A stretch of 53,769 nucleotides of DNA from Anaeromusa acidaminophila DSM 3853 (GCF_000374545.1 NZ_KB894603.1:1-53769), one strand, 5' to 3'; shown: positions 331 to 37,739, counted from the stretch's first letter. The notes: generated from the sequence alone by a model not told the origin. Translations and numbers: made by a program.

Positions 331-1215
331 CTACAACAGGAATTGGTAATCCAGGCGGTAGAGATGGGAATTGTAGTCGCCGTCATGCAGATATTCCACG
401 CCGGCGTTGAAGCGGCCTTGGCGGTAGGAAATAGTGCCTTTGTAGCTTTTGATGCTGCCGTCTTTATTGCGGGCCCAGAGGCCTTGCTCCCAAGCAAGCG
501 CCAATGTACCGCCTCCGATAGGAATATCGTATTTTGGCGTAATGCTGAGGCGGTGTTCTTGCTGAGGCACCCAGTAAATGCCGGGCTGGGTAAACTTGGC
601 ATCGTGATAGGCGTAAGAAGCGACGGTCTCAAAACGGGCGGAATGCTTTTGCGTATACGAAAGAACGTACTTTTGTTCGCGATTTTGGTCGCTATAGAAC
701 CATTGATTGGTCTCTAATCCCAGCGAAGCGCCGGGACTGGTGCGCCACATGTGGCTGGCGGAGACGCTGCTGCGAAAGAGGTTGCGCTCGTTGGCCGGGA
801 TTGTGCCGATGCTTTCGCGGCCAACGCTGTACCAGGCGTGATGGGTGTCGCTGATACTTTGATCATACATAAGCGCGGCAGGAACAAAGCTACGCAAATC
901 GTTTTTCGTGTAGCCGCCCCAAATAGTGAGATTGGCTTCATTTTTCAAAGGGCGCACCCATTTGAAGACCAATGTCTTTTCATCAATAGACGGACGATAT
1001 TTTTGCCCCAAGCGCGTGAGATACAGCGTGTAGCTCAGCGGATTCTCCGCTTTTTCATCGGTAATCTTCATGCTGCGGGATGTTACGCCGTCGCTGTCGG
1101 TGCTGTAAGTAAAACTAGTATCAACGATTGTTTTTTTTGTATCTGTCGCTGCTTCCGCCGTTCCGTAGAAAACTAAACTGGCGGCGCAGCACAGGAAAAA
1201 AAACGCTTTTTTCAT
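331..1215 (-). CDS. Exported beta-strand-rich protein, probable outer-membrane barrel
   Basis: A 294-residue protein with a clear signal peptide (MKKAFFFLCCAASLVFYG, cleavage near TAEA-A at residue 22). The mature part alternates polar and aromatic residues in short strands (for example KYVLSYTQK, RFETVASYAYHDA, RFNAGVEYLHDG) and ends in the aromatic/hydrophobic run YRLDYQFLL. This pattern is typical of small outer-membrane beta-barrels. I do not recognise the specific family. It follows the GT2 synthase gene on the same strand, separated by a 160-bp repeat and a purine-rich tract. A role in export or anchoring of the synthesised polymer is an inference from position only. The start is preceded by GGAGGAGAG. 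Confidence 0.65.
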   Translation of the reverse strand: MKKAFFFLCCAASLVFYGTAEAATDTKKTIVDTSFTYSTDSDGVTSRSMKITDEKAENPLSYTLYLTRLGQKYRPSIDEKTLVFKWVRPLKNEANLTIWGGYTKNDLRSFVPAALMYDQSISDTHHAWYSVGRESIGTIPANERNLFRSSVSASHMWRTSPGASLGLETNQWFYSDQNREQKYVLSYTQKHSARFETVASYAYHDAKFTQPGIYWVPQQEHRLSITPKYDIPIGGGTLALAWEQGLWARNKDGSIKSYKGTISYRQGRFNAGVEYLHDGDYNSHLYRLDYQFLL

Positions 1216-1235
1216 ACTCTCCTCCTCTTTTTGCA

Positions 1236-1395
1236 GGGCCCTGCTAATGTATTCGTATCACGCGCCAGGGGCAATTCTTTTTCCGCCTGGCTGCGTCAGA
1301 AAACCTTGAAAGAGCGCCGCTATTCCTGCGGCCTTCTTCCTTGCCAGGCGAAAAAATCTCTTGCCCTGGCGGTGCACTCATGAAATCAGCAGGAC
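1236..1395 (+). repeat. 160-bp nested palindromic repeat, copy A
   Basis: Ends are GGGCCCTGCT and AGCAGGACCC (inverted). An inner arm CGCCAGGGGCAA...CGCCTGGC pairs with GCCAGGCG...TTGCCCTGGCG, and a GC-rich central hairpin lies around GAAAGAGCGCCGCTATTC. It is very similar to copies C and F. It lies between the 5' end of the barrel gene and the GT2 gene. Confidence 0.85.
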
Positions 1396-1466
1396 CCTTG
1401 GGTCTTGGAAAAATATATTGATTAAATATCAGCCCCTATAGAATTTTAAAACAAAATATCCGCGTG

Positions 1467-1618
1467 CCCTCCCTCTACTCACTCTACTCCTGTTAAAATA
1501 CGTGCCCTGTAATCCTCGATCGGGCCCTCTGGTCCTCCGATTCTCTTGTTCAATCCATTATTTCTCTGGCTTTTCCTCTGTTACTCTGCTTACTCTGCGT
1601 TCCGTGTCTTCTGTGTTA
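1467..1618 (-). repeat. Purine-rich degenerate repeat tract following copy A
   Basis: On the minus strand this is a run of short degenerate units such as AACGCAGAG, TAAGCAGAG and TAACAGAGG, with the phrases TTGAACAAGAG and TTTTAACAGGAGTAGAG. The same phrases recur in more than ten other spacers of the window. It begins directly at the stop codon of the GT2 gene. Confidence 0.7.
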
Positions 1619-4495
1619 CTTTTTCCCCGCGCCCTCCTGCTCCGCAGGCTTTTCGCTTTGCTGAAAGCCTTGGCGCTTCATGTTGCCCCAGCCTGTTTGC
1701 TGGCGCAGGGTATTCAAGTAGCCTGTGACGCGCCAAAAATTGGCCAATTGCCGGAACCAGAAGTTTTCCAAAATGGCGTAGCCCAGCAAGGTAGCCATGT
1801 AGGGGCCGGGGAAATAATCATTTTCCCGGGAGACAATGACAAGAGAGAACACCGACACAAGTACTCCTAAAAGGACGCTGCTTAGCAGCAGCAGCAAAGC
1901 AAGCGGCAGGTTGAGCAAACCAAGGCAAGCGGCAGCGACAACCATGACGTAGCCTTGCACTTCTAAAAATGGACCGAACATTTCGAAAAGGAAGAAATAC
2001 GGTAAGGCCACCATCCCCAAAAGGCCATAACGGGGGTTGAGCAGCAACTGGCGGTGGAAGAAAAGAATGTCAATGAGGCCGCGCTGCCAGCGATCTCGCT
2101 GGCGGTGCAGGACAGACAGTGTAGAGGGGACTTCAGTCCAGCAGTTGGCGTTGAAGGCGTAGAGAATGCTGTGTGGCAAGTTTTGTTCGCACATGTAACG
2201 CCGCAGGCGCACGACTAGTTCCATGTCTTCGCCGACGGTGTCTTTTTTGTGGCGCTCGCTGCTGGTAAGGTAGCCGCCGATTTCGACCACGCGGTCTTTG
2301 TTGAAAAGGCCGAAAGCGCCGGAAATAATCAACAAGGAGTTGATATGCGCCCAACCGAGACGGCCGGCCATAAAGGCCCGCAAGTATTCGATGGTTTGGA
2401 AGCGCGCCAGGTGGCTGGCAGGAAGTCCGATATGAGTCAGCTCGCCGCGATCAACCTTGCAGCCATTAACCGGAAAGATATTGCCGCCCACGGCGATCGG
2501 TTCCGCCGGTGCGTCCAAGATAGTGGAAGCCAGCTTGAGAAGAGAGTCTTTTTCCAGCAGGCAGTCGGCGTCAATGCCGCAGAAAAACTCCTTCCCCGAG
2601 ACGTTGATGCCCACGTTGAGGGCATCGGCCTTGCCGCCGTTGGCCTTGTCCACAACCAGCAGCTTGGGGATGGCCTTCGAGGCGTAGAGCCCTCGGATAG
2701 GCTGAGTTTTGAGACGCTGCGGCACAAAACGGTCGATTTTTTCCAGCTGAAAGTGTTCAATCAGCTGATTAAGGGTGTTGTCGTTGGAGCCGTCATTGAC
2801 TACGAGCAGTTCGTAGTTGGGATAATGCAGGTTCAAAAGAGATCGGGTGCTTTCAATGATGGTGCTCTCTTCCAGGTAGGCCGGGGCGATGATGGTAATG
2901 CCAGGCAGCATACGGGGGCGGAAGAGGAAGCTACGTTTCTTTGTCTTCCATGCGTCAGCTTGTTTGCGGATGGCTAAAAGAGAAAAAAACAGAAGCGCCA
3001 AAGAAATTCCGTTGACCGCAAGGGAATAAAAAGCAATATAGTAGTTGAAGTCCAGGACAAATTGGGTCAGATGCATGTAGGGCGTCCAGGCGTAAAACTG
3101 CTCCCAATAACGTGCTGCATACAGCAGAGGCACTGACAAAAAGGCAAAGGGCAGAAGCAACTGCAGGTGAAAAACTTTTTCGTAATCGACCACATGCTCG
3201 CGGCGTTTTGCTTCTTGCGGCAGAGGCGTCTCGCCGAGCTTCTCCAAAATGCCTGCCGGTAGGTACAGACGGAGCTCTTGGCGCACCTCAGGCGCCTCCG
3301 GCAGGAGACGGCGCAACTGGTCTAGCAGAATAACCTCAATTTCCTGGGAATGGTTGCGCCGCAAAAGGCCGATGATGGCATTGGTTTTCTTGGCCTGAAT
3401 AAGACGTTTCAAGGTGCGCTCCAGCATTGGATCCGGTCCGGCGGTCAAGCGCATCAGCAGATATTCGAGGCGGTTCGCCAAGACGGTTGCCAAGGCGCTT
3501 TGCGTAGTTTCCTCATGGTCTTTTTGGAATTCTGCAAGAATAAAATTCAATAAAGCCGGCTTTTTTTGGACAATCGAAGACATGGTTACCGCGGCCTGGT
3601 CGCTGTGCCGCGGTTGCCCAGAAAGAGGCAGCAACAGCTCTAAAGTACGCCGTGTAGGAATGGCGCTCAAGGCCTGAATGGTGATGTTGCGTATGACTGG
3701 ATCTGGATTTTCCAGAAATAGCGGGGTTTTCAGCTCGTGGCAGTAAAAAATCCCCAAATTGCGCGTAGCGCGGTAAGCAATGTCTTTGACAGGAGAAGAA
3801 ATGCACTGAAGCAGATATTTCTTCAAGGCAGCCGAAGGATAGATGGCGGCAAAATCCACTAGCAGGCTCTGAATTTCCATTTCCGTCCGCTGTGTTAGCT
3901 GCGGTACGTAATCGTGAAAGGCCTTGCCGAACGAAGCTAGACGCATGTTGACGCGAGTTCGGTACCATTGCGGCGCTCCGGGCAGTGTTTCTACCATAAG
4001 CGGGATGGCCTTGACGTCTTCAAGGCGGGCTAAAGCCGCGCATAGGTATAGTTTGGTTTGTAGGTCCTTCTCTTTTGGTAAGGCTTCTTCTAAGGCGTGG
4101 TTGGTATTGGAACAGGGCAGCGCGGCTAAGAGGAGGGCGGCTTTGCGGCGGCGTGCCGCGAAGGAGGACCGTAATTGTTGGTGATAGCGGCGTTCAACAT
4201 TTGTTTCCCGCAGGGCTTTGATGAATCGATTGCGAGGATCTTTGTGCAGCTGGTGCAGCTGGGTTAGATCCTGCAGCAAATCAAAGGCTCTGCGTTTGGC
4301 TTTGCGAATCCAAGGCCGCAGTGCTTCTTCGTCGTAGTAGGCAAAGTCCTGCAGCAGGTTGCGGGTTAAGGTCAACTGCTGCCGCTTGCGTCGGTGCAGG
4401 CGGTACTTTTGGTAGGCGATAAGCGCCAAACCATAGCCGATGAATAAGAGCAAACCGGCGCAAAGCCAATATAATTCTTCTAGAGTGACCAGCAT
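1616..4495 (-). CDS. HEAT-repeat/GT2 fusion: processive membrane glycosyltransferase
   Basis: 959 residues. There is an N-terminal membrane helix (about 9-29), then a basic helical region of HEAT-like repeats (about 110-410), two or more membrane helices (about 444-510), and a family 2 glycosyltransferase domain (about 530-810). The GT2 domain has the processive signature: DGS at 568-570, DAD at 642-644, GED at 755-757 and QRDRW (QxxRW) at 799-803. Further C-terminal membrane helices follow (about 825-925). The catalytic core resembles BcsA/PgaC-type synthases. No PilZ domain is visible. It presumably polymerises and exports an extracellular polysaccharide from a UDP-sugar; the sugar cannot be deduced. 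The HEAT-like extension is unusual. It lies directly downstream of the ODP/GGDEF/REC gene, which suggests shared control. Confidence 0.85.
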   Translation of the reverse strand: MLVTLEELYWLCAGLLLFIGYGLALIAYQKYRLHRRKRQQLTLTRNLLQDFAYYDEEALRPWIRKAKRRAFDLLQDLTQLHQLHKDPRNRFIKALRETNVERRYHQQLRSSFAARRRKAALLLAALPCSNTNHALEEALPKEKDLQTKLYLCAALARLEDVKAIPLMVETLPGAPQWYRTRVNMRLASFGKAFHDYVPQLTQRTEMEIQSLLVDFAAIYPSAALKKYLLQCISSPVKDIAYRATRNLGIFYCHELKTPLFLENPDPVIRNITIQALSAIPTRRTLELLLPLSGQPRHSDQAAVTMSSIVQKKPALLNFILAEFQKDHEETTQSALATVLANRLEYLLMRLTAGPDPMLERTLKRLIQAKKTNAIIGLLRRNHSQEIEVILLDQLRRLLPEAPEVRQELRLYLPAGILEKLGETPLPQEAKRREHVVDYEKVFHLQLLLPFAFLSVPLLYAARYWEQFYAWTPYMHLTQFVLDFNYYIAFYSLAVNGISLALLFFSLLAIRKQADAWKTKKRSFLFRPRMLPGITIIAPAYLEESTIIESTRSLLNLHYPNYELLVVNDGSNDNTLNQLIEHFQLEKIDRFVPQRLKTQPIRGLYASKAIPKLLVVDKANGGKADALNVGINVSGKEFFCGIDADCLLEKDSLLKLASTILDAPAEPIAVGGNIFPVNGCKVDRGELTHIGLPASHLARFQTIEYLRAFMAGRLGWAHINSLLIISGAFGLFNKDRVVEIGGYLTSSERHKKDTVGEDMELVVRLRRYMCEQNLPHSILYAFNANCWTEVPSTLSVLHRQRDRWQRGLIDILFFHRQLLLNPRYGLLGMVALPYFFLFEMFGPFLEVQGYVMVVAAACLGLLNLPLALLLLLSSVLLGVLVSVFSLVIVSRENDYFPGPYMATLLGYAILENFWFRQLANFWRVTGYLNTLRQQTGWGNMKRQGFQQSEKPAEQEGAGKK

Positions 4496-4515
4496 CGTGT
4501 CACCTCCTTTTTGGG

Positions 4516-4675
4516 CAGGGGCTGCCTAGCTATGAACCTCTCGCACCAAAGCGGATCTTTTTCGTCAGGCGTTGTCAGAAAGTCTAGGCATAGCTCCACT
4601 ATGCCTGCATTTTCTTTCGCGCTTGGCGAAAAAATCTTTCTCTTTGGTGGAGCGTTCACTAACTGTCAGCCCCTG
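4516..4675 (+). repeat. 160-bp nested palindromic repeat, copy B
   Basis: Ends are CAGGGGCTG and CAGCCCCTG. The inner arm GCACCAAAG...CGTCAGGC pairs with GCTTGGCG...CTTTGGTGGAGC. The central hairpin is AGGCATAG/CTATGCCT. Most arm bases differ from copy A, yet each arm still pairs with its partner. Confidence 0.85.
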
Positions 4676-4708
4676 TGGAAATTTGAAATATATCGAACCC
4701 CGCAACTC

Positions 4709-4806
4709 TCGTTCGAACCCTCTGGTTCTCCGATTCTCGTGTTCAATCTTTTTTTCTGTTACCTCTGGCTTTTCTCTGTTCCTCTGCGTTTCGTTCTCTT
4801 CTTTTA
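4709..4806 (-). repeat. Purine-rich degenerate repeat tract following copy B
   Basis: The minus strand carries units such as GCAGAGGAACAGAG and GAACACGAGAATCGGAG. These match the tract next to copy A. It runs up to the stop of the ODP/GGDEF/REC gene. Confidence 0.6.
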
Positions 4807-6849
4807 GAACTGTAAGGCTCTTTTTTGCCGGAACTTCAGCAGCACCAGACCGATAAGCTCTGGCAGAATATACGGTTTTTGCAGGTAATGCTCTACTTCC
4901 AAGGCCAAGGCGCGCTGAATGCCTTCGTGGTCTTTAAGGTGGGACAGGAAGAAAAATGGGATGGCTTGAGAAGACGAATTTTGCCGCAGCCGTTCTCGCA
5001 GGGCGAAGCCGTCGACTTTGGGCAGCAGCACCTCGGAGATAATCAGCTCCGGTTGGTGTTTTTCCACTGCGGCGAGGGCTTCTTCGCCATTAGCCGCAGT
5101 GAGAATGCTGAAGCCTTCCGCCTGCAGCAGGCTGCACAGTACTTCTAGGTGCAATTCGTCGGTGTCAACCAACAAGATTTGTCCCAAAGAAACGGAAACA
5201 GGAATGCCGGTATCCGTAAAGACGCGGTTTCTGCCCTGTTGCCGGGCGTTAGCGAGATATCCCTTGGCTGTTTGATAGAAAGCTTGCATGCAAAGTTCGG
5301 TTTCCTCGCACTGACGCTCGGTCAGATCAGACGAAGCAATGACGCCGATGGAAACAGTGGTGGCTTCGATGAAATGTGTAGACTGTTCGACCAGATAGCG
5401 CAGTTCTTCGGCGTAGGCCAGGGCGTTTTCTTTGGCGGCGCCTTCCAGATAGCAGGCAAAAACCGGTCCATCAACTTTGAATAAATGGCTGCCTGCTTGC
5501 AAGTGTTCTTTGAGAAACAGCGCCAGGCCGCGCAGCAGCTCGTCGCCAGCTCGGCTGCCGTGCCGGAGATTGACTTGCGCCAGATTGTCTGCGCCGATGA
5601 GCAGCAGCGCTCCTGAAGGCGCTTGATACCGCGCCTGTTTGCATTGCTCTTCTAGGTATTCTAAAAACACCTTTTCATTGTTGAGTTTGGTGAGGGGACA
5701 CTGGAGCAGGTGGCTGGCCGCATGCTGGACATGTTCTTGAATGCGCAGATTTTTTTCCAGCAGCGCCAGATTTTCCTGATGCAGACGTTGAGTTTCTTTT
5801 TCCAGAGAAAATAATACGGTGTCATAGATTTGCGGCGTGGCGGCGGTATAGGTATTGGTGAGCTGACGCACTAGGGGTTCTAATTGCAGCAGTAAATCCA
5901 GGCCGCGGCGTTGATACAGCGTAGCAAAGAAGGCATGCCAATTTTCTTCGGTGCCGGGAAAATCATCTGGAAGCTGCAGGCAGTCGGTCAGCAGCGGGAA
6001 GGAAGTGCCAGCAAAGAGGACATGGATTTTCCGGCGCGAAAGCAGGCCCGTAAGACGCTGCAGTACTTGATTGAGCAAGGGGGTGTAGCTGTCCTGGGGG
6101 CGCAGTTTTTTGGCCTGCGGCGTCAACAGAGAACCGCAGGCCAAGTGGCGCAGTGTCTCTATATATACCGGTAAATCCCGGCGGATGACAGAACCGTGCT
6201 GCGGAGCGATTCGCTCTAAATCCAGCTGGGAAAATACTTCCATTGCAGAGCCCAGGATGTCGGAGGAAGGCATATAATGCTCATGAAAGGCTTTCATGGC
6301 TTCCAGGTAATTGAGACCGTCCCATTCGTCTGCGAATAAAGGAGCTTCTTCTGTCAGGACACCAAAGAGATCGCTGGAAAACAAGGTGCGGCTTTGCGGA
6401 TCATAAGTGGCAAAGGCGCAAGGCGAATGCAAATAGGGCGTGGGATAAAACTGTAGCAAATGATCCTGCCCAAAAACGAGGCGGTGCTCCTGCTGGCTGA
6501 TATTATAAAACTCAGAACGGACGCCATAGCACTTGATAATGGGAATGGCGCGCCAGTGCGCTACAAGCTGGCCTTGAAAGCAATACTGCTCCCAAAGAGG
6601 GACGCTGGCGCAAAAATCGGGATCCTGATGCTGCAGCACAATATAGCGCAACTTCTCGATGGGAATGAGCTGTGTTACCTTGTTCCAGACCTGCGGAAAG
6701 TCGAGGGGAGATCCAGGATCGATGAGTACGGCTTCTTCTTGAGCAACGATTAAATAAGGGTTGCAGTTCAGTGGCATCTGGTTGGCGGCAGCGCCCACCC
6801 AGTAAACGCCGTTATCAAGAGAGATTGGCTTTTGGCTGTCCTTAGACAT
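4804..6849 (-). CDS. ODP (diiron beta-lactamase fold)-degenerate GGDEF-receiver regulator
   Basis: 681 residues in three parts. Residues 1-240 form a metallo-beta-lactamase fold of the flavodiiron/ODP type, with likely ligands H74, D76, D78, H141, D160 and H218. Such domains bind a diiron site and sense or reduce oxygen. A helical linker contains a coiled coil at about 345-385. Residues about 385-545 form a GGDEF-like domain whose signature reads AGDEL (434-438), so diguanylate cyclase activity is doubtful. Residues 556-681 are a receiver domain. It keeps D562/D564, S636 and K658, but has Glu606 where the phospho-accepting Asp should be (ISEVLLP), a phosphomimetic-like substitution. The gene sits upstream of the GT2 synthase and divergent from three receiver-containing genes. 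It is a likely redox-responsive regulator of that synthase, which is an inference. RBS GGAAAGGAGACT. Confidence 0.8.
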   Translation of the reverse strand: MSKDSQKPISLDNGVYWVGAAANQMPLNCNPYLIVAQEEAVLIDPGSPLDFPQVWNKVTQLIPIEKLRYIVLQHQDPDFCASVPLWEQYCFQGQLVAHWRAIPIIKCYGVRSEFYNISQQEHRLVFGQDHLLQFYPTPYLHSPCAFATYDPQSRTLFSSDLFGVLTEEAPLFADEWDGLNYLEAMKAFHEHYMPSSDILGSAMEVFSQLDLERIAPQHGSVIRRDLPVYIETLRHLACGSLLTPQAKKLRPQDSYTPLLNQVLQRLTGLLSRRKIHVLFAGTSFPLLTDCLQLPDDFPGTEENWHAFFATLYQRRGLDLLLQLEPLVRQLTNTYTAATPQIYDTVLFSLEKETQRLHQENLALLEKNLRIQEHVQHAASHLLQCPLTKLNNEKVFLEYLEEQCKQARYQAPSGALLLIGADNLAQVNLRHGSRAGDELLRGLALFLKEHLQAGSHLFKVDGPVFACYLEGAAKENALAYAEELRYLVEQSTHFIEATTVSIGVIASSDLTERQCEETELCMQAFYQTAKGYLANARQQGRNRVFTDTGIPVSVSLGQILLVDTDELHLEVLCSLLQAEGFSILTAANGEEALAAVEKHQPELIISEVLLPKVDGFALRERLRQNSSSQAIPFFFLSHLKDHEGIQRALALEVEHYLQKPYILPELIGLVLLKFRQKRALQF

Positions 6850-7105: not shown

Positions 7106-8089
7106 ATGTCGAAGCAAGAAAAGCTGAAAGTGCTGTTTGTGGATGATGAAGCAAATGTACTTAGCGCGATTCGCCGGGCGGTGCAGGACGAGGAATATGA
7201 GGCGCTTTTTGCTAAAAGCGGCAAAGAAGCCTTGGCGTTGTTGGAAACTGAGAACATTGCCGTTCTGGTTACCGATATGCGCATGCCGGAAATGGACGGA
7301 TTACAGCTTTTAAAGCTGGCGAAAGAGCAGTTTCCCGCTACGGTGCGCATGGTTTTATCGGGGTATACCCAATTAAGCCAGGTTTTAGCGACGGTGAATC
7401 ATGCCGATGTGTTTAGCTTTATTACCAAACCATGGGATGATGATTTTTCGCGCTTTATTTACCGGGCCTTGGAATATTATCAACTGAAAAAAATGGAAGC
7501 AAACATGAAAGAGACCTTGGAGTCTCGTAATAACGCCTATAAAAAAGTGTTAGACCGTATGGAAGGCAAGATGAAAGAGCAGGAGCTTCGCTTAGGGCGT
7601 ATTTTGGCGTTAAGCGTGCAAACGGAAAAAGCCCGCCAGGCTGGCGCGGAGGAAGCAATGCTGCAGGCGGCGGTCCGTTGGATTCATGGGTATGCTTCTG
7701 GACTCACGCCGGAAGGATTTTCTTTGCACGAAGAAGCCGAACACCTCAAAGAGTGGTTAGTGGAGTATGCAGGCTCGGAAGAGAGAGTTCTGGAAAACTA
7801 CGAAGCCCTGGGAAACGTACGAGGCTTACGTTTTTTGCCTGGATTACTGTTAAAAACGTTCCTTAATGGGGAGCAGACGCTCTTGCAGGGGCAAGTATCG
7901 CTGCGCTGGGAAGGCGAGAAAAAAATTATTCTTGAATTGCTGTTGATTACCCCCTTGGCGAGCGAAAGCCAACGGCAACTGGAAAGGTTTTTTAAAGAGC
8001 ATCTGCGTGATAGCGAGATTTGGTTTGAAGAAGCGGAACTGGCGGACCGACGAGTGCTGAAGATAGGGCAGCCATTTTCGTTGCTTTAA
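7106..8089 (+). CDS. Response regulator with uncharacterised C-terminal domain
   Basis: 327 residues. The receiver domain spans about 7-125 with a full set of active residues: D13/D14, phospho-acceptor D57 (VTDMRMPEMDG), S85 and K108 followed by PW. A charged coiled-coil linker runs from about 125 to 175. The C-terminal part (about 180-327) has no DNA-binding, GGDEF, EAL or HD motif that I recognise. The KPW receiver type is typical of regulators with enzymatic or protein-binding outputs rather than OmpR-like ones. It is first in a three-gene run with the REC-HDOD and hybrid kinase genes (spacers 37 and 13 nt). Confidence 0.75.
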   Translation: MSKQEKLKVLFVDDEANVLSAIRRAVQDEEYEALFAKSGKEALALLETENIAVLVTDMRMPEMDGLQLLKLAKEQFPATVRMVLSGYTQLSQVLATVNHADVFSFITKPWDDDFSRFIYRALEYYQLKKMEANMKETLESRNNAYKKVLDRMEGKMKEQELRLGRILALSVQTEKARQAGAEEAMLQAAVRWIHGYASGLTPEGFSLHEEAEHLKEWLVEYAGSEERVLENYEALGNVRGLRFLPGLLLKTFLNGEQTLLQGQVSLRWEGEKKIILELLLITPLASESQRQLERFFKEHLRDSEIWFEEAELADRRVLKIGQPFSLL

Positions 8090-8126
8090 GGCGCAGCCGC
8101 CACGGCGGCGAAGGGAGGCGGACCGG

Positions 8127-9314
8127 TTGAAAGCATCCATTCTCTTTGTTGATGATGAGAAACCGATTTTGCGTTCATTACGGAGAGTTTTTCAAGATAC
8201 GGAGTACGAATTATTCTTTGTGGAAAGCGGCGATGCCGCCTTGCGCTTTTTGCAGTTGCAGCGAGTGGATCTGGTAATCAGCGATATGCGCATGCCGGGA
8301 ATGGACGGGCATCAACTATTGCGGCGCATAAAAGAACTGTATCCGCAAACCATGCGCCTCATTCTTAGCGGCTTTGCGGAGAAAAACAGGGTGTTTACTT
8401 CGCTCCTGGATGGGTCGGCACAGATGTATTTGCTTAAGCCTTGGGACAATGAAGCTTTGTTGAGTTTGGTCGATAAAGTGCTGCTCCTGCAGAACACCTT
8501 GCGGGATAAAAAGCTGTTGACGCAAATTGAGTTTTTGGGGCAATTGCCTACGTTGCCGGAAACCTATGAAAAGCTATGCCGTTTTATCGAGGAAGAAGCG
8601 GACGTAAAAGAGATGGCGGTGCTGGTCGAGTCGGACCCGGTGATTGCCGGCAAACTACTGCAAGTAGCGAACGCCGCTTTTTATGGGGCTAAAATTGGTT
8701 CGGTACAGCAGGCTATTTCCTACTTGGGCCTAAATGTTTTGCGGGATTTGGTCTTGGCGAGCGGGCTTTTTGCCGCGCCTTCCGTGGGGCTGGCGGAGCG
8801 GAAGGTGCTGGACTTATTTTGGAGTCATTCCGTACAGGTGAACCGCTTTGTGCATCGCTTATACCAAGCCGTCTATAAAAAAAATATTTTGGAAGAATTT
8901 GCTTCCGTAGGACTGCTCCATGACTTAGGGGTCGTCGCCTTGCTAAAAGGATTTGGCGAAACCTTTTTGCCGTGGCCTTGGTATAAAGAGCAGCTTTTAG
9001 CTGGCGGGCTAAGCGCCTTGATGACGGCAGAACGAGAAAAATTCGGCGTTGCTCACAACGAGCTGGGCGGGTATTTGCTGCATTGGTGGCAGCTTCCTTA
9101 TGCGTTGGTAGAAGCGGCGCTTTATCACCATGAGCCGTTAGCCGGGCATGTGGTGCATAAGGAACTGTTGTGCCTGGTTCATATTGCCAACAGCTTTTCC
9201 TGGGGGCAACTGCTGAAAAAAGAACTTTATTGCGTAGACGAATCGATTTGGCGTTTTGTCGGTCTCCAGCCGGGAACGGTGACGAAACTGCTGGCGGAAC
9301 CGGAAACGAAATGA
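8127..9314 (+). CDS. REC-HDOD response regulator
   Basis: 395 residues. The N-terminal receiver (about 3-120) has DD at 9-10, phospho-acceptor D53 (ISDMRMPGMDG) and the KPW motif. It is followed by an HDOD domain (about 130-330) that starts with LGQLPTLPETYEKL and contains the DPVIAGKLLQVANAAFYG helix pair and LLHDLG. HDOD domains are HD-related, usually lack hydrolase activity, and act in signalling. The start is TTG, set by the RBS AGGGAGGCGG 8 nt upstream. It is probably co-transcribed with both neighbours and is a likely phosphorylation target of the downstream hybrid kinase. Confidence 0.85.
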   Translation: MKASILFVDDEKPILRSLRRVFQDTEYELFFVESGDAALRFLQLQRVDLVISDMRMPGMDGHQLLRRIKELYPQTMRLILSGFAEKNRVFTSLLDGSAQMYLLKPWDNEALLSLVDKVLLLQNTLRDKKLLTQIEFLGQLPTLPETYEKLCRFIEEEADVKEMAVLVESDPVIAGKLLQVANAAFYGAKIGSVQQAISYLGLNVLRDLVLASGLFAAPSVGLAERKVLDLFWSHSVQVNRFVHRLYQAVYKKNILEEFASVGLLHDLGVVALLKGFGETFLPWPWYKEQLLAGGLSALMTAEREKFGVAHNELGGYLLHWWQLPYALVEAALYHHEPLAGHVVHKELLCLVHIANSFSWGQLLKKELYCVDESIWRFVGLQPGTVTKLLAEPETK

Positions 9315-9327
9315 GGAGGTGAAGGCC

Positions 9328-11169
9328 ATGGACGATAAAAATCAACCATGGAATATTTTAGTGGTTGACGATGATCGTTTTTCCCGGGCCATCTTGATAA
9401 ATGCCTTAGAAAAAGACGGCTATGTCTGTCGGGAAGCAAAAGACGGCGTAGAAGCGCTGGAGATGTATCAAGCGCAAACGCCGGACCTGATTCTGATGGA
9501 TGTAGAGATGCCTCGCATGGGCGGCGTGGAAGCCTGCAGGCGTATCCGGGAGCTGGAAGACTCCTCTCATGTGATGATCTTATTTATTACGGGCCATGAT
9601 GAATCCAGCGATACCATCGAGCAGGCTTTTGCCGCCGGCGGTGACGATTATCTCCTTAAACCGGTCAATTTAGTCGTAATGCGCCAGCGCTTGGGACGCA
9701 TGCTGGAGCATTCCGCCTTGATGCGGCGCATTCTTTTCCAAAATGACATGTTGCTGCAAATGCGCCAGATTAGCTTCGATTTTCTGCAGGAACGCGATGT
9801 CCAGGCAACTTTGGGGCGCGTGCTGCAGCAATCGTTGCGGCTGACGTCGTCGGCGCTAGGCGCGGTGTACTTGTTGAATGAAAAAGAAAACTGCATGCAC
9901 TTGGCGGTGCAGGAAGGGATTTCCTTGGAGCCGATTGCTGTCTGTATTGCCAAAGGGCGGCATATGGTGGGACGCGCATGGGAAAAGGCGGAACCTTTTT
10001 TTGTTAATGAATATTCGACCTGGGAAGATCGCTTGCAGGGATCTGCTTGGAGTGATTTATGCCACATGGCGGCGCTGCCGCTGACGAGGGGCGGCATTGT
10101 TTTTGGCGTGATGGTGCTGGGTCGGCGGCGCGAACAAGGGGAGTTTACGGAGGCGCGCAAAAATGTGCTAATCCAATTGGCCGATTTATTGGCGCTAGTG
10201 GTAGATAACGCCCGCATCATGGAAGCCTTAGAAGAAGAAGTAAAACGAAGAGAATGCGCCCAACGGGAAGTGGAGGAAACTAATGGGGAGCTTTCGCTGG
10301 CGCTGACCACGCTGCAACAGGCGCAGAGTAAAATGGTGCAGCAGGAGAAATTGGCTGGCGTAGGCCAACTGGCAGCCGGCGTGGCCCACGAGATAAACAA
10401 CCCCCTAGGTTTTGTAAGCAGTAATTTTTCGATGCTGCAACGCTATGTGGAACGCTTGTGCGAGCTGATCGAGGCGTACAAAAACGCGCTGGAGCAGGCG
10501 GAAGTCGAAGAAGCAGCCCAAGCGGTTGTGGCAGGCATGCGGGAAAAGGAAAAAAGCGCCAAATTGGAGCTGATGTTGGAAGATTTACCGGAACTTTTTG
10601 AGGAGACGAAGGACGGTATTGAACGTATCGGCAAAATTGTCAAGGCGTTGCGCGCTTTTTCGCGCGTGGATTCTTTAGATCAGTTCGGGGAATATGACTT
10701 GAACAGCGGCCTGGATACCACGTTGATTGTGGCGCGTAACGAGATAAAATATGTTGCTAAGATTGAGAAAAAGCTGGCGTCCTTGCCGATGATTCAAGCG
10801 ATAGGCAGTCAAATTAACCAAGTACTGCTAAATCTCTTGGTGAATGCCGCACAGGCGATACAAGCGGAAGGAAGGGAGGGGCAAGGAACCATCCGCATTC
10901 AGACGTCTCAAGAAGAGGACTGGGTGCGCTGCTCCATCTACAATGACGGACCGCCTATTCCGGAAGACATTCGAGATCGTTTGTTTGAGCCTTTCTTTAC
11001 GACGAAGCCGGTTGGGAAGGGTACCGGGCTGGGCTTAAGCATTTCTTATGAAATTGTCGTACAAAAGCATCATGGAGAAATCTTTTTTACCAGTGATGAA
11101 AGCGGTACGGAATTTGTGCTGCGCTTGCCGGTTATGCAGCCTGATGTTACTATCGCGGCGATTCTCTAG
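9328..11169 (+). CDS. Hybrid sensor: receiver-GAF-histidine kinase
   Basis: 613 residues. The N-terminal receiver (about 8-125) has D58 in LILMDVEMPRMGG and K111. A GAF domain spans about 150-295, followed by a coiled coil. The HisKA domain has H354 in the H-box GVAHEINNPLG. The HATPase domain has an N-box (NQVLLNLLVNAAQAI), the G1 segment YNDGPPIPED, an F-box (FEPFFTTK) and G2 GKGTGLGLS. No membrane helix is seen, so the kinase is soluble. A longer frame with a GTG start exists 9 nt upstream, but AGGAGGTG at 9313-9320 places the start at the ATG of 9328. It presumably phosphorylates the two preceding receivers. A terminator follows. Confidence 0.88.
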   Translation: MDDKNQPWNILVVDDDRFSRAILINALEKDGYVCREAKDGVEALEMYQAQTPDLILMDVEMPRMGGVEACRRIRELEDSSHVMILFITGHDESSDTIEQAFAAGGDDYLLKPVNLVVMRQRLGRMLEHSALMRRILFQNDMLLQMRQISFDFLQERDVQATLGRVLQQSLRLTSSALGAVYLLNEKENCMHLAVQEGISLEPIAVCIAKGRHMVGRAWEKAEPFFVNEYSTWEDRLQGSAWSDLCHMAALPLTRGGIVFGVMVLGRRREQGEFTEARKNVLIQLADLLALVVDNARIMEALEEEVKRRECAQREVEETNGELSLALTTLQQAQSKMVQQEKLAGVGQLAAGVAHEINNPLGFVSSNFSMLQRYVERLCELIEAYKNALEQAEVEEAAQAVVAGMREKEKSAKLELMLEDLPELFEETKDGIERIGKIVKALRAFSRVDSLDQFGEYDLNSGLDTTLIVARNEIKYVAKIEKKLASLPMIQAIGSQINQVLLNLLVNAAQAIQAEGREGQGTIRIQTSQEEDWVRCSIYNDGPPIPEDIRDRLFEPFFTTKPVGKGTGLGLSISYEIVVQKHHGEIFFTSDESGTEFVLRLPVMQPDVTIAAIL

Positions 11170-11193: not shown

Positions 11194-11232
11194 GCAGTTA
11201 AGAAGCAACGTCTTCTTGGCTGCTCCTTTTGT
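11194..11232 (+). terminator. Rho-independent terminator of the signalling operon
   Basis: GCAGTTAAGAAG pairs with CTTCTTGGCTGC (12 bp with two G-U pairs, 6-nt loop) and is followed by TCCTTTTGTTTT. Confidence 0.75.
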
Positions 11233-11290
11233 TTTGGCGTTGCCACAGTAAATGACGCCCTGGGGATATATAGAAGGTAGCGCTAGTATA

Positions 11291-11306
11291 GGAAGACCGG
11301 TCTTCC
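11291..11306. promoter_or_regulatory. Perfect 16-bp palindrome upstream of the sigma gene
   Basis: GGAAGACCGGTCTTCC ends 18 nt before the ATG of the sigma factor gene. A perfect palindrome with no loop suits a dimeric repressor site better than an RNA hairpin. No regulator can be named. Confidence 0.45.
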
Positions 11307-11324
11307 GCCATGAGGTGGAAGAAA

Positions 11325-11873
11325 ATGAAAAACATAGAAGAACTAGTAAGGGAGGCTCAAGAAGGCAAGAAAGCCGCGTTCGAGGAATTGTGCCGCCGTT
11401 TTACGGGGCTGGTTCGTTCGCGGGCAAGACAAAGCTTTGCCCGCAGCGTCCGCGAAGATATGGAAGGTGCGGCCTGGCTGGCTTTTGCCAAAGCTGTTAG
11501 AGAGTACCGTGCCGGCAGCGGCCATTTTGAAGGCTATGCGGCGCAGTGTGTTGCCTATGCCGTTTGGAACGCCTTTCAAAAAGAATGTAAATGTTGGCAG
11601 CGGCAGGCGGGAAGCCTAGATGCCGAGGGCTTTCCCGAAGCGGCAGGGATGGAAAATGTAGAAGAAACGGTGGAGAAAAAACTGCTGGAAGAAAAGCTGC
11701 GGCAAACCGTGAAGCGGTTATCCTCCAGGCAGCGGCAAGTTGTGCAGGAACGGCTGAGGGGGAGGTCGGTGCAAGAAATTGCCAAGCAGATGGGGGTAAG
11801 CCATCAAGCGGTCTCGCGGCTGCTGTCCAGAGCGGCGGAAGCGGTGCGCTGCGCCTGGAAAGTAAAAAAATAA
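11325..11873 (+). CDS. Small sigma-70-family factor (regions 2 and 4)
   Basis: 182 residues. Region 2 is near the N-terminus (AAFEELCRRFTGLVRSRA, then EDMEGAAWLAFAKAVREY in the 2.2 position). Region 4 is at about 120-180, with LSSRQRQVVQERLRGRSVQEIA and the helix-turn-helix MGVSHQAVSRLLSRAAEAV. Region 3 is missing, as in ECF-sized factors. An in-frame ATG lies 15 nt upstream, but GAGGTGG at 11311-11317 selects the ATG at 11325. No anti-sigma gene is adjacent. The genes that follow (DUF1659, DUF2922, YvrJ) are small proteins repeatedly found next to one another in Firmicutes, so this factor may drive them. Confidence 0.8.
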   Translation: MKNIEELVREAQEGKKAAFEELCRRFTGLVRSRARQSFARSVREDMEGAAWLAFAKAVREYRAGSGHFEGYAAQCVAYAVWNAFQKECKCWQRQAGSLDAEGFPEAAGMENVEETVEKKLLEEKLRQTVKRLSSRQRQVVQERLRGRSVQEIAKQMGVSHQAVSRLLSRAAEAVRCAWKVKK

Positions 11874-11933
11874 AAAGAAAGGTTGCCAAACGCTCGCCCG
11901 AGCAATGTCTCTGAGTGAAAGGGGGTGAGCTTC

Positions 11934-12158
11934 ATGGCAGTAAGCAAAGCAGTGGAATCCAGCAAAATGGTGCTGCGGGTGCAAACCGGTCTTGACGCCG
12001 CCGGTAAGGCGGTATACAAGAATGTATCCTTGAGCGGTTTGAATCCTGCCGCCGCCGATGCAGACGTCTACGACGCCGCAACCGCGCTGGGCGGACTCCA
12101 AAAAGACACCGTGGCCTCGGTGCTGCGCGTCGACCAGGGACACCTGACTAACGCGTAA
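11934..12158 (+). CDS. DUF1659 small protein
   Basis: 74 residues. The sequence matches the DUF1659 pattern: an N-terminal strand region (SSKMVLRVQTGLDAAGKAVYKN), then VSLSGLNPAAADADVYDAATALGGLQ and a C-terminal strand TVASVLRVDQGHL. There is no signal peptide or membrane segment. Function is unknown. The start at the ATG of 11934 is set by AAAGGGGGTG. It lies 60 nt after the sigma gene and 37 nt before DUF2922, in the arrangement usual for this pair. Confidence 0.82.
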   Translation: MAVSKAVESSKMVLRVQTGLDAAGKAVYKNVSLSGLNPAAADADVYDAATALGGLQKDTVASVLRVDQGHLTNA

Positions 12159-12195
12159 GACAGACCTAGCGTAGAAAAACAAGGAGGTGAAAACC

Positions 12196-12408
12196 ATGAC
12201 GAAACGTCTGGAAATGATCTTTCGGGACGAAGCCGGTAAAGAAGCGACTCTTTCCTTGGTCAACCCCAAAGACGATCTGACTAAGGCTGGCGTAATGGCG
12301 GTCATGCAGACCGTTGCCACCAAGCGCTTGTTCCAAAACAAGAACGGCGCTTTGGTAACGCCGGTGTCCTGCCAGGTTCATACGCAGGATACGCAGGCTT
12401 TGGCCTAA
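12196..12408 (+). CDS. DUF2922 small protein
   Basis: 70 residues. It fits DUF2922: TKRLEMIFRDEAGKEATLSL, then NPKDDLTKAGVMAVMQTV and a C-terminal LVTPVSCQVHTQD. It is a soluble alpha/beta protein of unknown function. A strong AAGGAGGTGA precedes the ATG. It is probably co-transcribed with DUF1659, and a terminator follows within 10 nt. Confidence 0.82.
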   Translation: MTKRLEMIFRDEAGKEATLSLVNPKDDLTKAGVMAVMQTVATKRLFQNKNGALVTPVSCQVHTQDTQALA

Positions 12409-12413
12409 TAAAG

Positions 12414-12449
12414 AACCGGGCGGCGGGGCAACCTGCTACCCGGTTTTTT
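12414..12449 (+). terminator. Terminator after DUF2922
   Basis: AACCGGG pairs with CCCGGTT around an interior that can pair partly (GGCGGGG/CCTGCT), followed by a T6 run. It separates DUF2922 from the downstream YvrJ gene. Confidence 0.75.
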
Positions 12450-12476
12450 ATGTGGAGAAAAGCCGGGGGAATTGGA

Positions 12477-12520
12477 TTTGAACAGGAGTAAAAGGAGTAA
12501 AGGGAGGGTACGAATGAGGG
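12477..12520 (+). repeat. Purine-rich degenerate repeat tract next to copy C
   Basis: It carries TTTGAACAGGAGTAAAAGG and AGTAAAGGGAGGGTACG, the same phrases as the tracts near the other repeats. Relative to copy C, which is inverted, it lies on the same side as in copies A and B. Confidence 0.6.
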
Positions 12521-12576
12521 TGACGGGGTGCGGTTTTTAGCAGGTAACAGGCACAAAAATATTAGATATGAGTCAA

Positions 12577-12737
12577 GGGTGCTGCTGATTTAATGAGTGC
12601 ACCGTCAAGGTAGGATATTTTTTTGCCTGGCAAGAAAGAGAGCCGCAGAAATAGCGGCGCTCTTTCAAGGCTTTCTGACGCAGCCAGGTGGAAAAAGAAT
12701 TGCCCTGGCGTGTGATACGAATAAATCGGCAGCACCC
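12577..12737 (-). repeat. 160-bp nested palindromic repeat, copy C (inverted)
   Basis: Ends are GGGTGCTGCT and GGCAGCACCC. The inner arms CCGTCAAGG...TTGCCTGGC and CCAGGTGG...CCCTGGCGTG pair. The central part AGCCGCAGAAATAGCGGCGCT is close to copy A. It lies between DUF2922 and YvrJ and ends 20 nt before the YvrJ start codon, so the YvrJ RBS is just outside the element. Confidence 0.85.
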
Positions 12738-12757
12738 TGAGAAAGGAGATGTTTTAG

Positions 12758-12907
12758 ATGGAAGCGTTGTTGGCGGCCATGTCGGCGTACGGTTTTCCGA
12801 TGGTAGTTGCGGCCTATCTTCTGGTGCGGGTGGAGACCCGCCTGGATCGGCTCAGCGAATGCATTCAAGAACTGGCGCGGGCGATCGGCGCGAAAGGCGG
12901 CGTGTAA
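12758..12907 (+). CDS. YvrJ-family small membrane protein
   Basis: 49 residues: MEALLAAMSAYGFPMVVAAY, then LLVRVETRLDRLSECIQEL and a short C-terminus. This is the YvrJ pattern, with one membrane helix containing YGFPMVVAAYLLVR followed by an amphipathic charged helix. The GAAAGGAG at 12741-12748 supports the ATG. Function is unknown. It belongs with the upstream sigma/DUF1659/DUF2922 genes by family co-occurrence, although here a terminator and repeat copy C intervene. Confidence 0.8.
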   Translation: MEALLAAMSAYGFPMVVAAYLLVRVETRLDRLSECIQELARAIGAKGGV

Positions 12908-12918
12908 AAAGTTTGTAA

Positions 12919-12958
12919 AAAAGGAGTCAGCGGTATGGGATGCCGCTGGCTCCTTTTT
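12919..12958 (+). terminator. Terminator after YvrJ
   Basis: AAGGAGTCAGCGG pairs with CCGCTGGCTCCTT (one G-U), with a 9-nt loop and a T-run. Confidence 0.85.
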
Positions 12959-12990
12959 CGATATACCAGAATTTATTTTTATTATAAATT

Positions 12991-13035
12991 CTTCTCTGGC
13001 CTTTCCTCTGTTACTCTGCTTACTCGGTGTTTCAT
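12991..13035 (-). repeat. Pyrimidine-rich degenerate repeat tract, solitary
   Basis: CTTCTCTGGCCTTTCCTCTG is followed by TTACTCTGCTTACTC. This nearly duplicates the tract at 1561-1600, but there is no 160-bp repeat beside it. Confidence 0.6.
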
Positions 13036-13119
13036 CCTGTCCATAAAGGAATCTGAGGCCAAAAAGGCGAAATACTTTCAGCGCATACGATGCGGCATTA
13101 TTTTTCTGCGAGGTGACTT

Positions 13120-14379
13120 ATGGCGAAACAACGATATCAGGCGTTGGCGGCGTTAGGCGTGGCCGCCGCCGGGATGGCGGCGAGCTTGCCTTACGGGCAT
13201 ACCGTTGGCGGCGCTTTGGCGCAAAGCGCCTTTGGCGCGGCCTTGGTGGGCGGCTTGGCGGACTGGTTTGCGGTGACCGCCCTTTTTGGCAAGCCCTTAG
13301 GTTTTATTTCCTGGCGGGCGAATCTGGTGGCTCGCAACAAGGAACGGATACTAACGGATCTGACGGATCTAGTAGAAAAAGAGCTGTTGACGCCGGATAA
13401 TATTATGCAGGTGCTGCAGCGTTATGATGCGGCGGCGGTATTGCTTGACTATCTGCGGCGTCAGGGCGGGCGAGATACGCTGCGCCGCGTATTGGAGCGA
13501 CTACTGCAGGACATGACCTTGGCGGTGCGCCCGGAAGAAATGGGGCGGCTGGCGGATCAACTGCTGCGCATGGGGCTGGAACGGACGGAACTAGCGCCCT
13601 TGGCGCTGCGCGCCGGCGCGTGGAGCCTGCGGCAGCGCTATGACGACGTAGTGATAGCGCATGTGTTGGAGCAGGTGAGAGAGGCGCTAAAGACGGCGGA
13701 GTTTCGGGCGATTTTACTGGAAGTGCTGGAGGCGGCGATGGCTCGTTACGAGGCGGGCGGCATGCTGCGCAGCATGGTTAATCGCGCTGCGGGCCTGACG
13801 GCGGAAGATCGGGTGGATATGGTACTGCAGTGGTTGGAACGATTTGTGCAGAACCTGGCCGATCCGGAGCGGCCCCTGCGTCGTCGCTTACGGGCTTGGT
13901 GTTGGAAAAAGCTGCTGGGACTGCGGCAGCCGGAACGGCGGCAACAACTGGAAGAATGGAAAGGCGAGTGGCTGAGCCGGCATCCCGGATTTTTTGCTCA
14001 ATGGCTGACGCCCTGGGTGCAGGAGCTGCAGCAGGAGGTGCTGCAAGGAAAAGATCGCTTGCTGCCACACCAGGCGGAAGCTCTTACGGCGGCGGTGGAA
14101 AAAAGCTTGTCCGCGGAAAAAGATCAGCAAGGGGCCTTGGATCGTTGGATGAAGGAGCAGCTGTGCCGCTGGCTGCAGCGTCATCCTCTCGATTTGGCTT
14201 CCTTTGTTGCCGCCAGCGAATTGGGACGCAAATCCGGCGAAGAGCTGGCTGCTTATGTACAGGAAAAAGTGGGCGATGATTTGCAGATGATCCGCATTAA
14301 CGGCTCGGTGGTAGGCGGTTTGGCAGGGGCCTTCTTATTTCTCCTGACGCAGCTTGTGGAATGGGGGGTGGGACAATGA
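13120..14379 (+). CDS. DUF445 membrane protein (first of tandem pair)
   Basis: 419 residues. An N-terminal membrane helix (about 7-28) is followed by the DUF445 signature VGGLADWFAVTALFGKPLG and NLVARNKERI. A long, charged helical domain follows, then a C-terminal membrane hairpin after QMIRINGSVVGGLAG (about 388-416). DUF445 proteins are membrane-anchored with a large helical domain; their function is not established. The stop overlaps the start of the next gene (ATGA), indicating translational coupling. Confidence 0.85.
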   Translation: MAKQRYQALAALGVAAAGMAASLPYGHTVGGALAQSAFGAALVGGLADWFAVTALFGKPLGFISWRANLVARNKERILTDLTDLVEKELLTPDNIMQVLQRYDAAAVLLDYLRRQGGRDTLRRVLERLLQDMTLAVRPEEMGRLADQLLRMGLERTELAPLALRAGAWSLRQRYDDVVIAHVLEQVREALKTAEFRAILLEVLEAAMARYEAGGMLRSMVNRAAGLTAEDRVDMVLQWLERFVQNLADPERPLRRRLRAWCWKKLLGLRQPERRQQLEEWKGEWLSRHPGFFAQWLTPWVQELQQEVLQGKDRLLPHQAEALTAAVEKSLSAEKDQQGALDRWMKEQLCRWLQRHPLDLASFVAASELGRKSGEELAAYVQEKVGDDLQMIRINGSVVGGLAGAFLFLLTQLVEWGVGQ

Positions 14380-15982: not shown

Positions 15983-16740
15983 GTGAAACAAGATGTGGAT
16001 TGGGATGCGAAAAACAAGGAGCTGCTGACACGATACCAGCAAGGAGATAAAAAAGCGCTGGATGAGTTTTTGGCATGCAACCAAGGCCTTGTGCGTCATC
16101 TGCTGCGGCGCTATCGACGGCTGCCGCTGGGTATGGACGAAGACGATCTGATGTGATGCAATTAGGTTTTTTAGGGCTTATCGAAGCGGCGCAGCGGCCG
16201 CAGGCGTTAGAAAAGACTTGCTTGTCCAATTATCTTTCCTTCTGTATTCGCAAACGGCTTTATTTGGGAATTTGGCAGGAAGGGTATTTGGTGCACTTGC
16301 CGCGACGGCAGCATGAGGCTGTCATACAGACGCGGCGCATGGAGGAAGAGCGGCTGGTGAGAGGCAAACCCGAAGAATGGGGCTGGCTGCGGCTGGGCTT
16401 GTCTGCTGCGGACTATCGGGCGCGGCTACGCTGTTATCAAGTGTTTTTAGGCGGCCATGCTTCGCTGGACGCGGCGAAAGAGGGGGAGACGCGGCTTTGG
16501 AATGTGCTGCGCACGGAAAAAGAATCTTCGCCGGAGCTGCAAACCTTTCTACAACTGTTGCTGCGTCGTCTGCCGAAGCAACAGTTCTGGGTGCTGCGCG
16601 GCTATTTCGGACTGGACCATACTAAACGGCGTTCGTTGCGAGAGTTGGGGCGTCGATCCGGTTTGTCGGAAGAGCAGGTGCGCCAGATCTTGCGGGAGAC
16701 GTTGGAGCGTCTGCGGCATAGTATGGAGAAACGGCTATAG
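15983..16740 (+). pseudogene. Sigma-70-like factor split by a 5-bp duplication
   Basis: Two overlapping frames together make one sigma-like protein. The first (GTG at 15983 to TGA at 16154-16156, 57 codons) gives the start of region 2 up to GMDEDDLM. The second (from ATG at 16156) continues MQLGFLGLIEAAQR and runs to region 4 (LPKQQFWVLRGYFGLDHTK, then the helix-turn-helix ELGRRSGLSEEQVRQILRET). The junction ATGTGATGCAA contains TGATG in tandem; removing one 5-bp unit restores a single frame reading DDLMQLGFLGL. The simplest reading is a recent frameshift mutation. However, the stop and start overlap as TGATG, so coupled re-initiation that yields two chains cannot be excluded. Confidence 0.7.
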
Positions 16741-16886
16741 TTTTTGCGGCGTGATTCTCAAAAACGCTCGTTGTGCAGAGCAGGAGTTTTGGCAGCTAAG
16801 CAAGAATCCGTACCCATTACCCTAGCTTCCTGCTGTGCTTAGTAGAGAAGCTCTTTCGTGTTTTAACTGCGGAGAGGCGGATTTTG

Positions 16887-24547: not shown

Positions 24548-24828
24548 TGCTGGCGAAACTCTATCCCCAACTGGATTGTTTGGTTACCCTGGTTTCCGTG
24601 CATGATGCGCTGCTGGCGGAACGGGAGCTTGGGCAACGGAACATTCGTATTGTGCCGACGCCGCAGGCGTTGGATCTTAGTTGCGGACAAAGTCTGCTTT
24701 GCGCTCTGGAGGAGGCGGCGGAAATCCGGTTGTTGCTGGAGCGCGCCGGCGTGCGCTGCGGCTTTTGGCATCGGCGGAGCCAGGGCGGCTGGGTGAAAAT
24801 GGACGAGAGTACCGGGGACGAGGATTGA
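24547..24828 (+). CDS. DUF3343 putative Se/S carrier protein
   Basis: 93 residues. LVTLVSVHDALLAERELGQR, then RIVPTPQALDLSCGQSL matches the DUF3343 pattern, with a conserved SCG cysteine in the middle. These small proteins commonly sit beside selD and yedF and are suspected of carrying selenium or sulfur. The start ATG overlaps the yedF stop (TGATG). Longer frames that start upstream run inside yedF and are not needed. Confidence 0.82.
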   Translation: MLAKLYPQLDCLVTLVSVHDALLAERELGQRNIRIVPTPQALDLSCGQSLLCALEEAAEIRLLLERAGVRCGFWHRRSQGGWVKMDESTGDED

Positions 24829-24868
24829 ACAAGAGAACCGGAGTCACGGGAGGGTACGCAGGAGAGCT
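24826..24868 (+). repeat. Purine-rich degenerate repeat tract next to copy D
   Basis: TTGAACAAGAGAACCGGAGT followed by GGGAGGGTACGCAGGAGAG. It is nearly the same as the tract at 22593 and starts at the DUF3343 stop codon. Confidence 0.65.
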
Positions 24869-24895
24869 ATAGCGTATTGGATTTTGCAAAAGTAA

Positions 24896-25055
24896 GGAAG
24901 CGGCTGATTTAATGAACGCTCCGCGAAAACAAGAGCTTTTTTTGCCAGGCGAGGAAGAAAATGTAGGAATAGCGGCGCTCTTCCGAGGCTTTCTGACAAA
25001 GCCTGGCGTAAAAAGAGCTGTTTTGGCGTGAGATGTGAATAAATTAGTGGCTTCC
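24896..25055 (-). repeat. 160-bp nested palindromic repeat, copy D (inverted)
   Basis: Ends are GGAAGCGGCT and AGTGGCTTCC. The inner arm CGCTCCGCGAAAACAAGAGC pairs with GAGCTGTTTTGGCGTGA. The flanking GCCAGGCG/CCTGGCGT and the central GGAATAGC/GCTCTTCC arms also pair. Confidence 0.85.
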
Positions 25056-25078
25056 CAAAAGAGGAGGGTACGCAGGAT

Positions 25079-27424: not shown

Positions 27425-27543
27425 CAGACAACCGAACCCCAGCAGGACTGGCGGATCAGTGGAGAATACCACGTGGACTGCGATATGGGGATATGAAAGC
27501 CGACCGCCTGGGCAAAGCTTGTGTGCTGCCTGGGCGGTTTTTT
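27425..27543 (+). promoter_or_regulatory. ZTP (pfl motif) riboswitch with overlapping terminator
   Basis: The 5' half has GGACTGGCGG (from 27445) followed by the hairpin GTGG/CCAC (27459-27462, 27469-27472) and GTGGACTGCGA. The 3' half has the invariant GCCGACCGCCTGGGCA (about 27500-27514). These are the conserved parts of the ZTP/ZMP aptamer. The expression platform is visible: CCGCCTGGGCA (27504-27514) can pair with TGCCTGGGCGG (27527-27537), followed by T6, making a terminator that destroys the aptamer's 3' element. Ligand (a purine intermediate that accumulates at low 10-formyl-THF) is therefore predicted to switch pfl on. Confidence 0.92.
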
Positions 27544-37635: not shown

Positions 37636-37739
37636 GGCGGCACGTCCTTTCTTTAGATAAAAGAAAAAATAGCCATAGTTTTCCAGAGGAGACACATGAA
37701 ATACTTTCGCGGCTCACCTAGAAATTCCTTCTCTTGGTA

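Follow-up and report, generated by a model that had tools for sequence, protein, structure and literature searches.

A diiron-sensor regulator paired with a HEAT-repeat GT2 synthase: a probable synthase-dependent exopolysaccharide system of Anaeromusa acidaminophila

The window analyzed here is a 53,769-nucleotide stretch of DNA from Anaeromusa acidaminophila DSM 3853 (NZ_KB894603.1), and it makes up one entire contig of a genome assembled in 61. It carries genes for a regulator, a glycosyltransferase family 2 (GT2) synthase with HEAT repeats, and an exported beta-barrel protein, the last at the contig edge. These genes probably encode a synthase-dependent exopolysaccharide (EPS) system in which the regulator, a sensor, would act on the synthase through HEAT contacts and not through cyclic di-GMP (c-di-GMP). 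A first-pass annotation, made from the sequence alone, had placed the three genes in this order on the minus strand and proposed a polysaccharide system. Open reading frames were found at exactly those coordinates (Table 1), and the proposal is supported as regards a polysaccharide synthase system. Such a system is of interest because control by c-di-GMP is what synthase-dependent polysaccharides are best known for.

The conserved unit proved to be the sensor-synthase pair and not the trio. When 84,980 species genomes were scanned, relatives turned up at 35 loci, which belong to Bacillota, Spirochaetota, Chloroflexota, and Mycoplasmatota. These loci, two sister loci from the class, and further loci taken from the phylum provided 33 fused HEAT-GT2 genes with a readable upstream gene. 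At 32 of these, the gene directly upstream on the same strand encodes a pseudo-GGDEF domain and a receiver, and at 29 of the 33 the upstream regulator also contains an ODP domain. The sensor and synthase genes mostly overlap by 4 bp. In the lone exception (L025), the synthase frame is interrupted and an ODP regulator lies just beyond. Recurrence of the whole trio elsewhere, which had been named as a test of the proposal, was observed in G001 and G053.

The Pfam scan of the regulator matched ODP (3e-60), Response_reg (1e-18), and GGDEF (1e-17). The protein had been annotated as a redox-type regulator, but its GGDEF and receiver domains, both without active-site motifs, had been overlooked. The ODP domain scored 203.8 bits against PF19583 (cut-off 27.2), and its six diiron ligands (H-D-D-H-D-H) occupy positions identical to those in two solved ODPs (PDB 6qrq and 6qnm). 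The ODP of T. denticola is an O2 sensor for chemotaxis (PMC7666581), whereas here the domain is fused to a pseudo-GGDEF and a pseudo-receiver and linked to a synthase. Of 29 aligned regulators, 23 retain all six ligands. The GG(D/E)EF motif of active diguanylate cyclases is lost in all 34 homologous regulators. The receiver has a Glu at the phospho-acceptor position in 29 of 34 regulators, the window regulator having Glu as well, with Asp in four and Gly in one; other receivers at these loci have the phosphorylatable Asp in 38 of 39 cases, a count that takes in the reference sequence. Because the GGDEF and receiver motifs are lost and the ligands are mostly intact, the diiron centre is the only recognizable input site left in most regulators.

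The main alternative, which we consider unlikely, is that the pseudo-GGDEF domain is a c-di-GMP receptor like YdaK of B. subtilis, so that the system is c-di-GMP-controlled and ODP is a modulator. YdaK is indeed a receptor of the degenerate GGDEF type, and its gene belongs to an EPS operon that also includes a GT2 (PMC7064775); moreover, intact GGDEF genes occur near some homologous loci (L010, L013, L034, and L080). However, YdaK binds c-di-GMP through an intact RxxD I-site (PMC7064775), and no RxxD was seen at that place, before the GGDEF position, in 29 aligned homologues. According to another explanation, the receiver acts as a switch, either functional or phosphomimetic, the HEAT repeats answer phospho-signalling, and ODP only tunes the response. 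Glu can mimic phospho-Asp, and canonical Asp receivers are encoded upstream of HEAT and GT2 in the split lineage described below. However, 29 of 34 fused-type regulators from distant phyla have a fixed Glu, which leaves no switch there, and this explanation is quite improbable.

The synthase gave Pfam matches to Glycos_transf_2 and, weakly, to HEAT_2. Its DGS, DAD, GED, and QxxRW motifs, annotated as intact, are invariant across 30 homologues; with the flanking transmembrane helices and a model resembling hyaluronan synthase and BcsA, they place it among processive GT2 synthases. The predicted C-terminal half best matched Chlorella virus hyaluronan synthase (7sp7 and others), with BcsA less good. 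The hyaluronan synthase has no HEAT arm, and the likeness is one of fold that carries no evidence on the product. The HEAT-like character of the N-terminal half was corroborated by a profile search, which matched alphaRep/HEAT proteins with E-values down to 6e-34, and by the predicted structure, which is confidently all-helical there (predicted local distance difference test score, pLDDT, 84). Two assignments were rejected: the poly-N-acetylglucosamine (PNAG) synthase PgaC/IcaA (103.5 bits, TIGR03937 cut-off 422.3) and the cellulose synthase BcsA (23 bits, TIGR03030 cut-off 699.1; no PilZ in the Pfam scan). The annotation had suggested that the HEAT scaffold recruits partner proteins in place of c-di-GMP binding. 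The recruiting role gained support, and neither PilZ nor MshEN was found, whereas the independence from c-di-GMP is what we infer.

In a sister lineage, the two parts of the synthase are split. Here the synthase has ~470 residues, and a separate HEAT gene of 350-400 codons, encoding an N-terminal membrane anchor, lies directly upstream. The HEAT assignment has an hhalign probability of 98.8, and the gene is often preceded by a receiver gene with a normal Asp. A single clade (support 100/100) holds all fused synthases; three rows labelled split within it are contig-edge or frame-broken copies. Further fusions were each seen once: HEAT-GT2-GATase in one 1378-residue frame (L091, 9634-13770), and an exported glycoside hydrolase (GH) domain, a transmembrane helix, and HEAT in one 1081-residue frame (L083, 10845-14090), whose HEAT part matched a profile built without L083 at E 2e-50. 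HEAT, GT2, and the exported domains thus belong to one machine, because HEAT and GT2 are encoded by separate adjacent genes in one lineage, and HEAT or HEAT-GT2 is fused to exported domains in others. One Clostridia contig (L034) carries a fused (7794-10823) and a split-type (16304-17740) synthase a few kb apart.

The Pfam scan matched no family to the barrel protein, and a PDB profile search with its sequence gave no match. Structure prediction from a five-sequence alignment yielded a 16-stranded barrel after a signal peptide (pLDDT 83). The first-pass annotation had called the protein barrel-like and had named the lack of a predicted barrel as a refutation, which thus did not occur. Compared with the PDB, the top five chains were the EPS exporters PgaA (Z 25.3), PelB (24.6), and BcsC (23.7), and the next match, FhaC, was ~6 Z units lower (17.7). 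A gene for a tetratricopeptide repeat (TPR) protein is present in every one of the operons for PNAG, alginate, cellulose, and Pel (PMC9384988). PgaA, PelB, and BcsC carry such a domain (PMC9384988), whereas the 294-residue barrel protein has no N-terminal periplasmic TPR domain, its barrel beginning right after the signal peptide. Sequence comparison of the barrel with the PgaA families gave best E-values of 0.007 (TIGR03939, three of five members matching) and 0.022 (PF21197), and hhalign gave a weak match to PgaA over 49 columns. Comparison with YaiO as a possible relative gave no support.

Among 380 genomes of the class, which is taken as Negativicutes after the first-pass annotation, the barrel is encoded in five and the synthase in the same five, the two genes being adjacent in each. 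The chance of a random coincidence is ~2e-11, with two of the five being sister species. The five genomes come from four genera, and the fused lineage (the window, G001, and G053) is represented among them as well as the split one (G305 and G117); therefore, the barrel goes with the type of envelope rather than with the lineage of the synthase. Omp85, by which the genome of the window is diderm, is encoded in all five and in none of nine monoderm carriers tested, and the barrel is absent from the monoderm synthase carriers tested. No barrel homologue was found at the synthase loci of spirochaetes, which are diderm. Genes for SLH-porin-like proteins occur in a relative from the same class. The proposal that the barrel is the outer-membrane exit is thus likely, given its predicted fold and its perfect co-occurrence with the synthase. 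It could instead be argued that the genes are unrelated, the barrel being a general porin that lies by chance beside a glycosyltransferase and the sensor controlling something else. Repeats fill the intergenic gaps of the window, and most relatives' loci have no barrel, which would fit such an arrangement. However, the complete overlap of synthase and barrel across genera and lineages, the distance in Z units separating EPS exporters from other folds, and the sensor-synthase linkage across phyla make this highly improbable.

The third slot of the locus is usually occupied by an exported clan-A-hydrolase-like protein, and within the class it is taken by the barrel in the five diderm genomes only. 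The usual protein is N-anchored, has 700-1100 residues, and combines GATase-like and clan-A-hydrolase-like parts, labels based on sequence reading and weak Pfam matches. The matches of the GH-like domain are scattered (GH72 at 4.6e-6 in one member, GH113 at 4.5e-5 in another); GH72 and GH113 are clan GH-A families. A PDB profile search with this protein gave no match, and a search of the genome of the window found no homologue of it. The annotation had seen no partner genes, which is partly a contig-edge effect, as CE4-deacetylase-like and GH16-like genes open contig C27 of the same genome. The sister species shows the unbroken arrangement, with a CE4-like protein bearing a GH42M-like part and a GH16-like protein encoded convergently to the barrel. 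In G305, CE4-like and GH16-like genes belong to the same gene run, and in several spirochaetes GH16-like genes adjoin the synthase. By the barrel gene, CE4-like genes with a GH42M-like part followed by GH16-like genes with ExDxE-type residues lie at 11213-13153 and 13125-13859 (L041) and at 506-2446 and 2418-3338 (L053). The CE4-like and GH16-like proteins are possibly polymer-processing enzymes, and they hint, no more, that the polymer may be a substrate of GH16-type enzymes, for instance a beta-glucan or a galactan.

We propose that the GT2 domain makes the polymer and extrudes it across the inner membrane, as its motifs and hyaluronan-synthase-like model suggest, and that the barrel would pass it through the outer membrane in diderms. 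The HEAT arm, at the cytoplasmic N-terminus of the synthase, may be the docking site for the upstream regulator, whose pseudo-GGDEF and pseudo-receiver would serve as protein-interaction modules, no longer as cyclase or phospho-switch. The ODP diiron centre would provide the input, most likely O2 or the redox state, as in characterized ODPs, and its state would gate the synthase via the docked regulator. A core that has lost cyclase, I-site, and phosphorylation motifs across phyla and kept the diiron centre points to contact-based oxygen or redox gating.

Several observations weigh against this proposal. The ODP ligands are lost in a Rectinema-type spirochaete clade (L007, L023, L026, L029, and L040) and in L033, and no ODP was recognized upstream of the synthase in L030 and L091; metal sensing is therefore not essential everywhere. 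Some regulator receivers keep the Asp (Fusibacter, G531), and a degenerate GGDEF domain without an obvious I-site could still bind nucleotide. In the window itself, gaps of 308 and 400 bp with repeats separate the genes, which may therefore not be co-transcribed there. The Rectinema-type clade, with, for example, QESYAY for HDDHDH, yet with the linkage to the synthase kept, is a natural metal-dead comparison.

More broadly, and tentatively, the locus may represent a widespread class of synthases in monoderms and diderms under a cytoplasmic diiron O2/redox sensor, with direct HEAT contact, inactive GGDEF and receiver domains re-used for docking, no c-di-GMP, and a TPR-less export barrel added in diderms of the class. 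One synthase family in one- and two-membrane cells of the same phylum, with the export barrel only in the latter, offers a natural comparison.

Table 1. Features of the locus, numbered from the first nucleotide of the window
Feature	Position	Strand	Basis
Regulator, ODP diiron domain, linker, degenerate GGDEF, and degenerate receiver, 681 aa	4804..6849	-	Open reading frame, Pfam, alignments
ODP domain, residues 27-219, ligands H74, D76, D78, H141, D160, H218	6193..6771	-	Pfam, comparison with solved ODPs
Degenerate GGDEF domain, residues 385-542, DGPVF replaces GG(D/E)EF, no RxxD I-site	5224..5697	-	Pfam, alignment
Degenerate receiver, residues 558-666, Glu in place of the phospho-acceptor Asp (LIISEVLLPKVD)	4852..5178	-	Pfam, alignment
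HEAT-GT2 processive polysaccharide synthase, 959 aa	1616..4495	-	Open reading frame, Pfam, motifs, profile, predicted structure
HEAT-repeat region, about residues 56-420, after N-terminal transmembrane helix	3236..4330	-	Profile, predicted structure
GT2 catalytic domain, residues 531-806, DGS, DAD, GED, QRDRW	2078..2905	-	Pfam, alignment, predicted structure
Exported outer-membrane beta-barrel, 294 aa, predicted 16 strands, PgaA/PelB/BcsC-like fold, no TPR domain	331..1215	-	Predicted structure, PDB comparison
Probable signal peptide of barrel protein, residues 1-23, ends TAEAA	1147..1215	-	Sequence; low-confidence helix in predicted structure
Hairpin repeat of a dispersed intergenic family, between the synthase gene and the barrel gene; does not belong to the system and interrupts the run of genes	1226..1400		Repeat comparison, folding
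Related repeat, also dispersed and intergenic, between the regulator gene and the synthase gene	4547..4658		Repeat comparison, folding

The repeats belong to a dispersed intergenic family of ~110-175 bases, 72-92% alike, that fold as long hairpins (z -2 to -4). Two copies lie between the three genes, where a 4-bp overlap is usual in relatives, and further copies are at 12574-12748, 24823-25067, 31915-32039, 37730-37904, 40456-40584, and 46793-46908. Divergent signalling genes at 7106-11169 (+) encode a receiver, a receiver-HDOD protein, and a receiver-GAF-histidine kinase; G001 keeps them in this order next to the system, whereas G053 does not. A ZMP/ZTP riboswitch (RF01750, 51.5 bits) is located at 27434-27520 (+).

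In the open-access literature, we found no description that links HEAT repeats to polysaccharide synthases or to response regulators, or diiron sensors to GGDEF, although such absence is not proof. Within that literature, the sensor-synthase pair with its HEAT arm is an undescribed form of synthase-dependent EPS system, and, judging from the sources, the nearest systems (YdaJKLMN, Pga, and Nfr) all lack both an ODP-type regulator of this kind and a HEAT arm. The NfrB-NfrA-YbcH system of E. coli likewise combines a GT2 synthase, an outer-membrane protein, and a cognate GGDEF protein that contacts the synthase (PMC8669469), but the GT2 of NfrB is very distant from the synthase described here. 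PgaABCD of E. coli resembles the system in three respects: PgaC is the nearest to the GT2 among four E. coli synthases, PgaA has the nearest barrel fold, and two genomes of the genus of the window have a deacetylase-like gene close to the barrel. It differs in that the barrel here has no TPR, the CE4-like protein encoded nearby has no match to PgaB, the GT2 falls far below the PgaC/IcaA cut-off, and a HEAT arm and an ODP regulator are present. The EPS operon YdaJKLMN of B. subtilis likewise encodes a GT2, a regulator whose GGDEF is degenerate, and a glycoside hydrolase that is exported, with no HEAT or ODP mentioned for it (PMC7064775, PMC13274460). YdaK keeps its I-site and binds c-di-GMP, whereas the regulator described here has lost the I-site and carries a diiron sensor and a pseudo-receiver.

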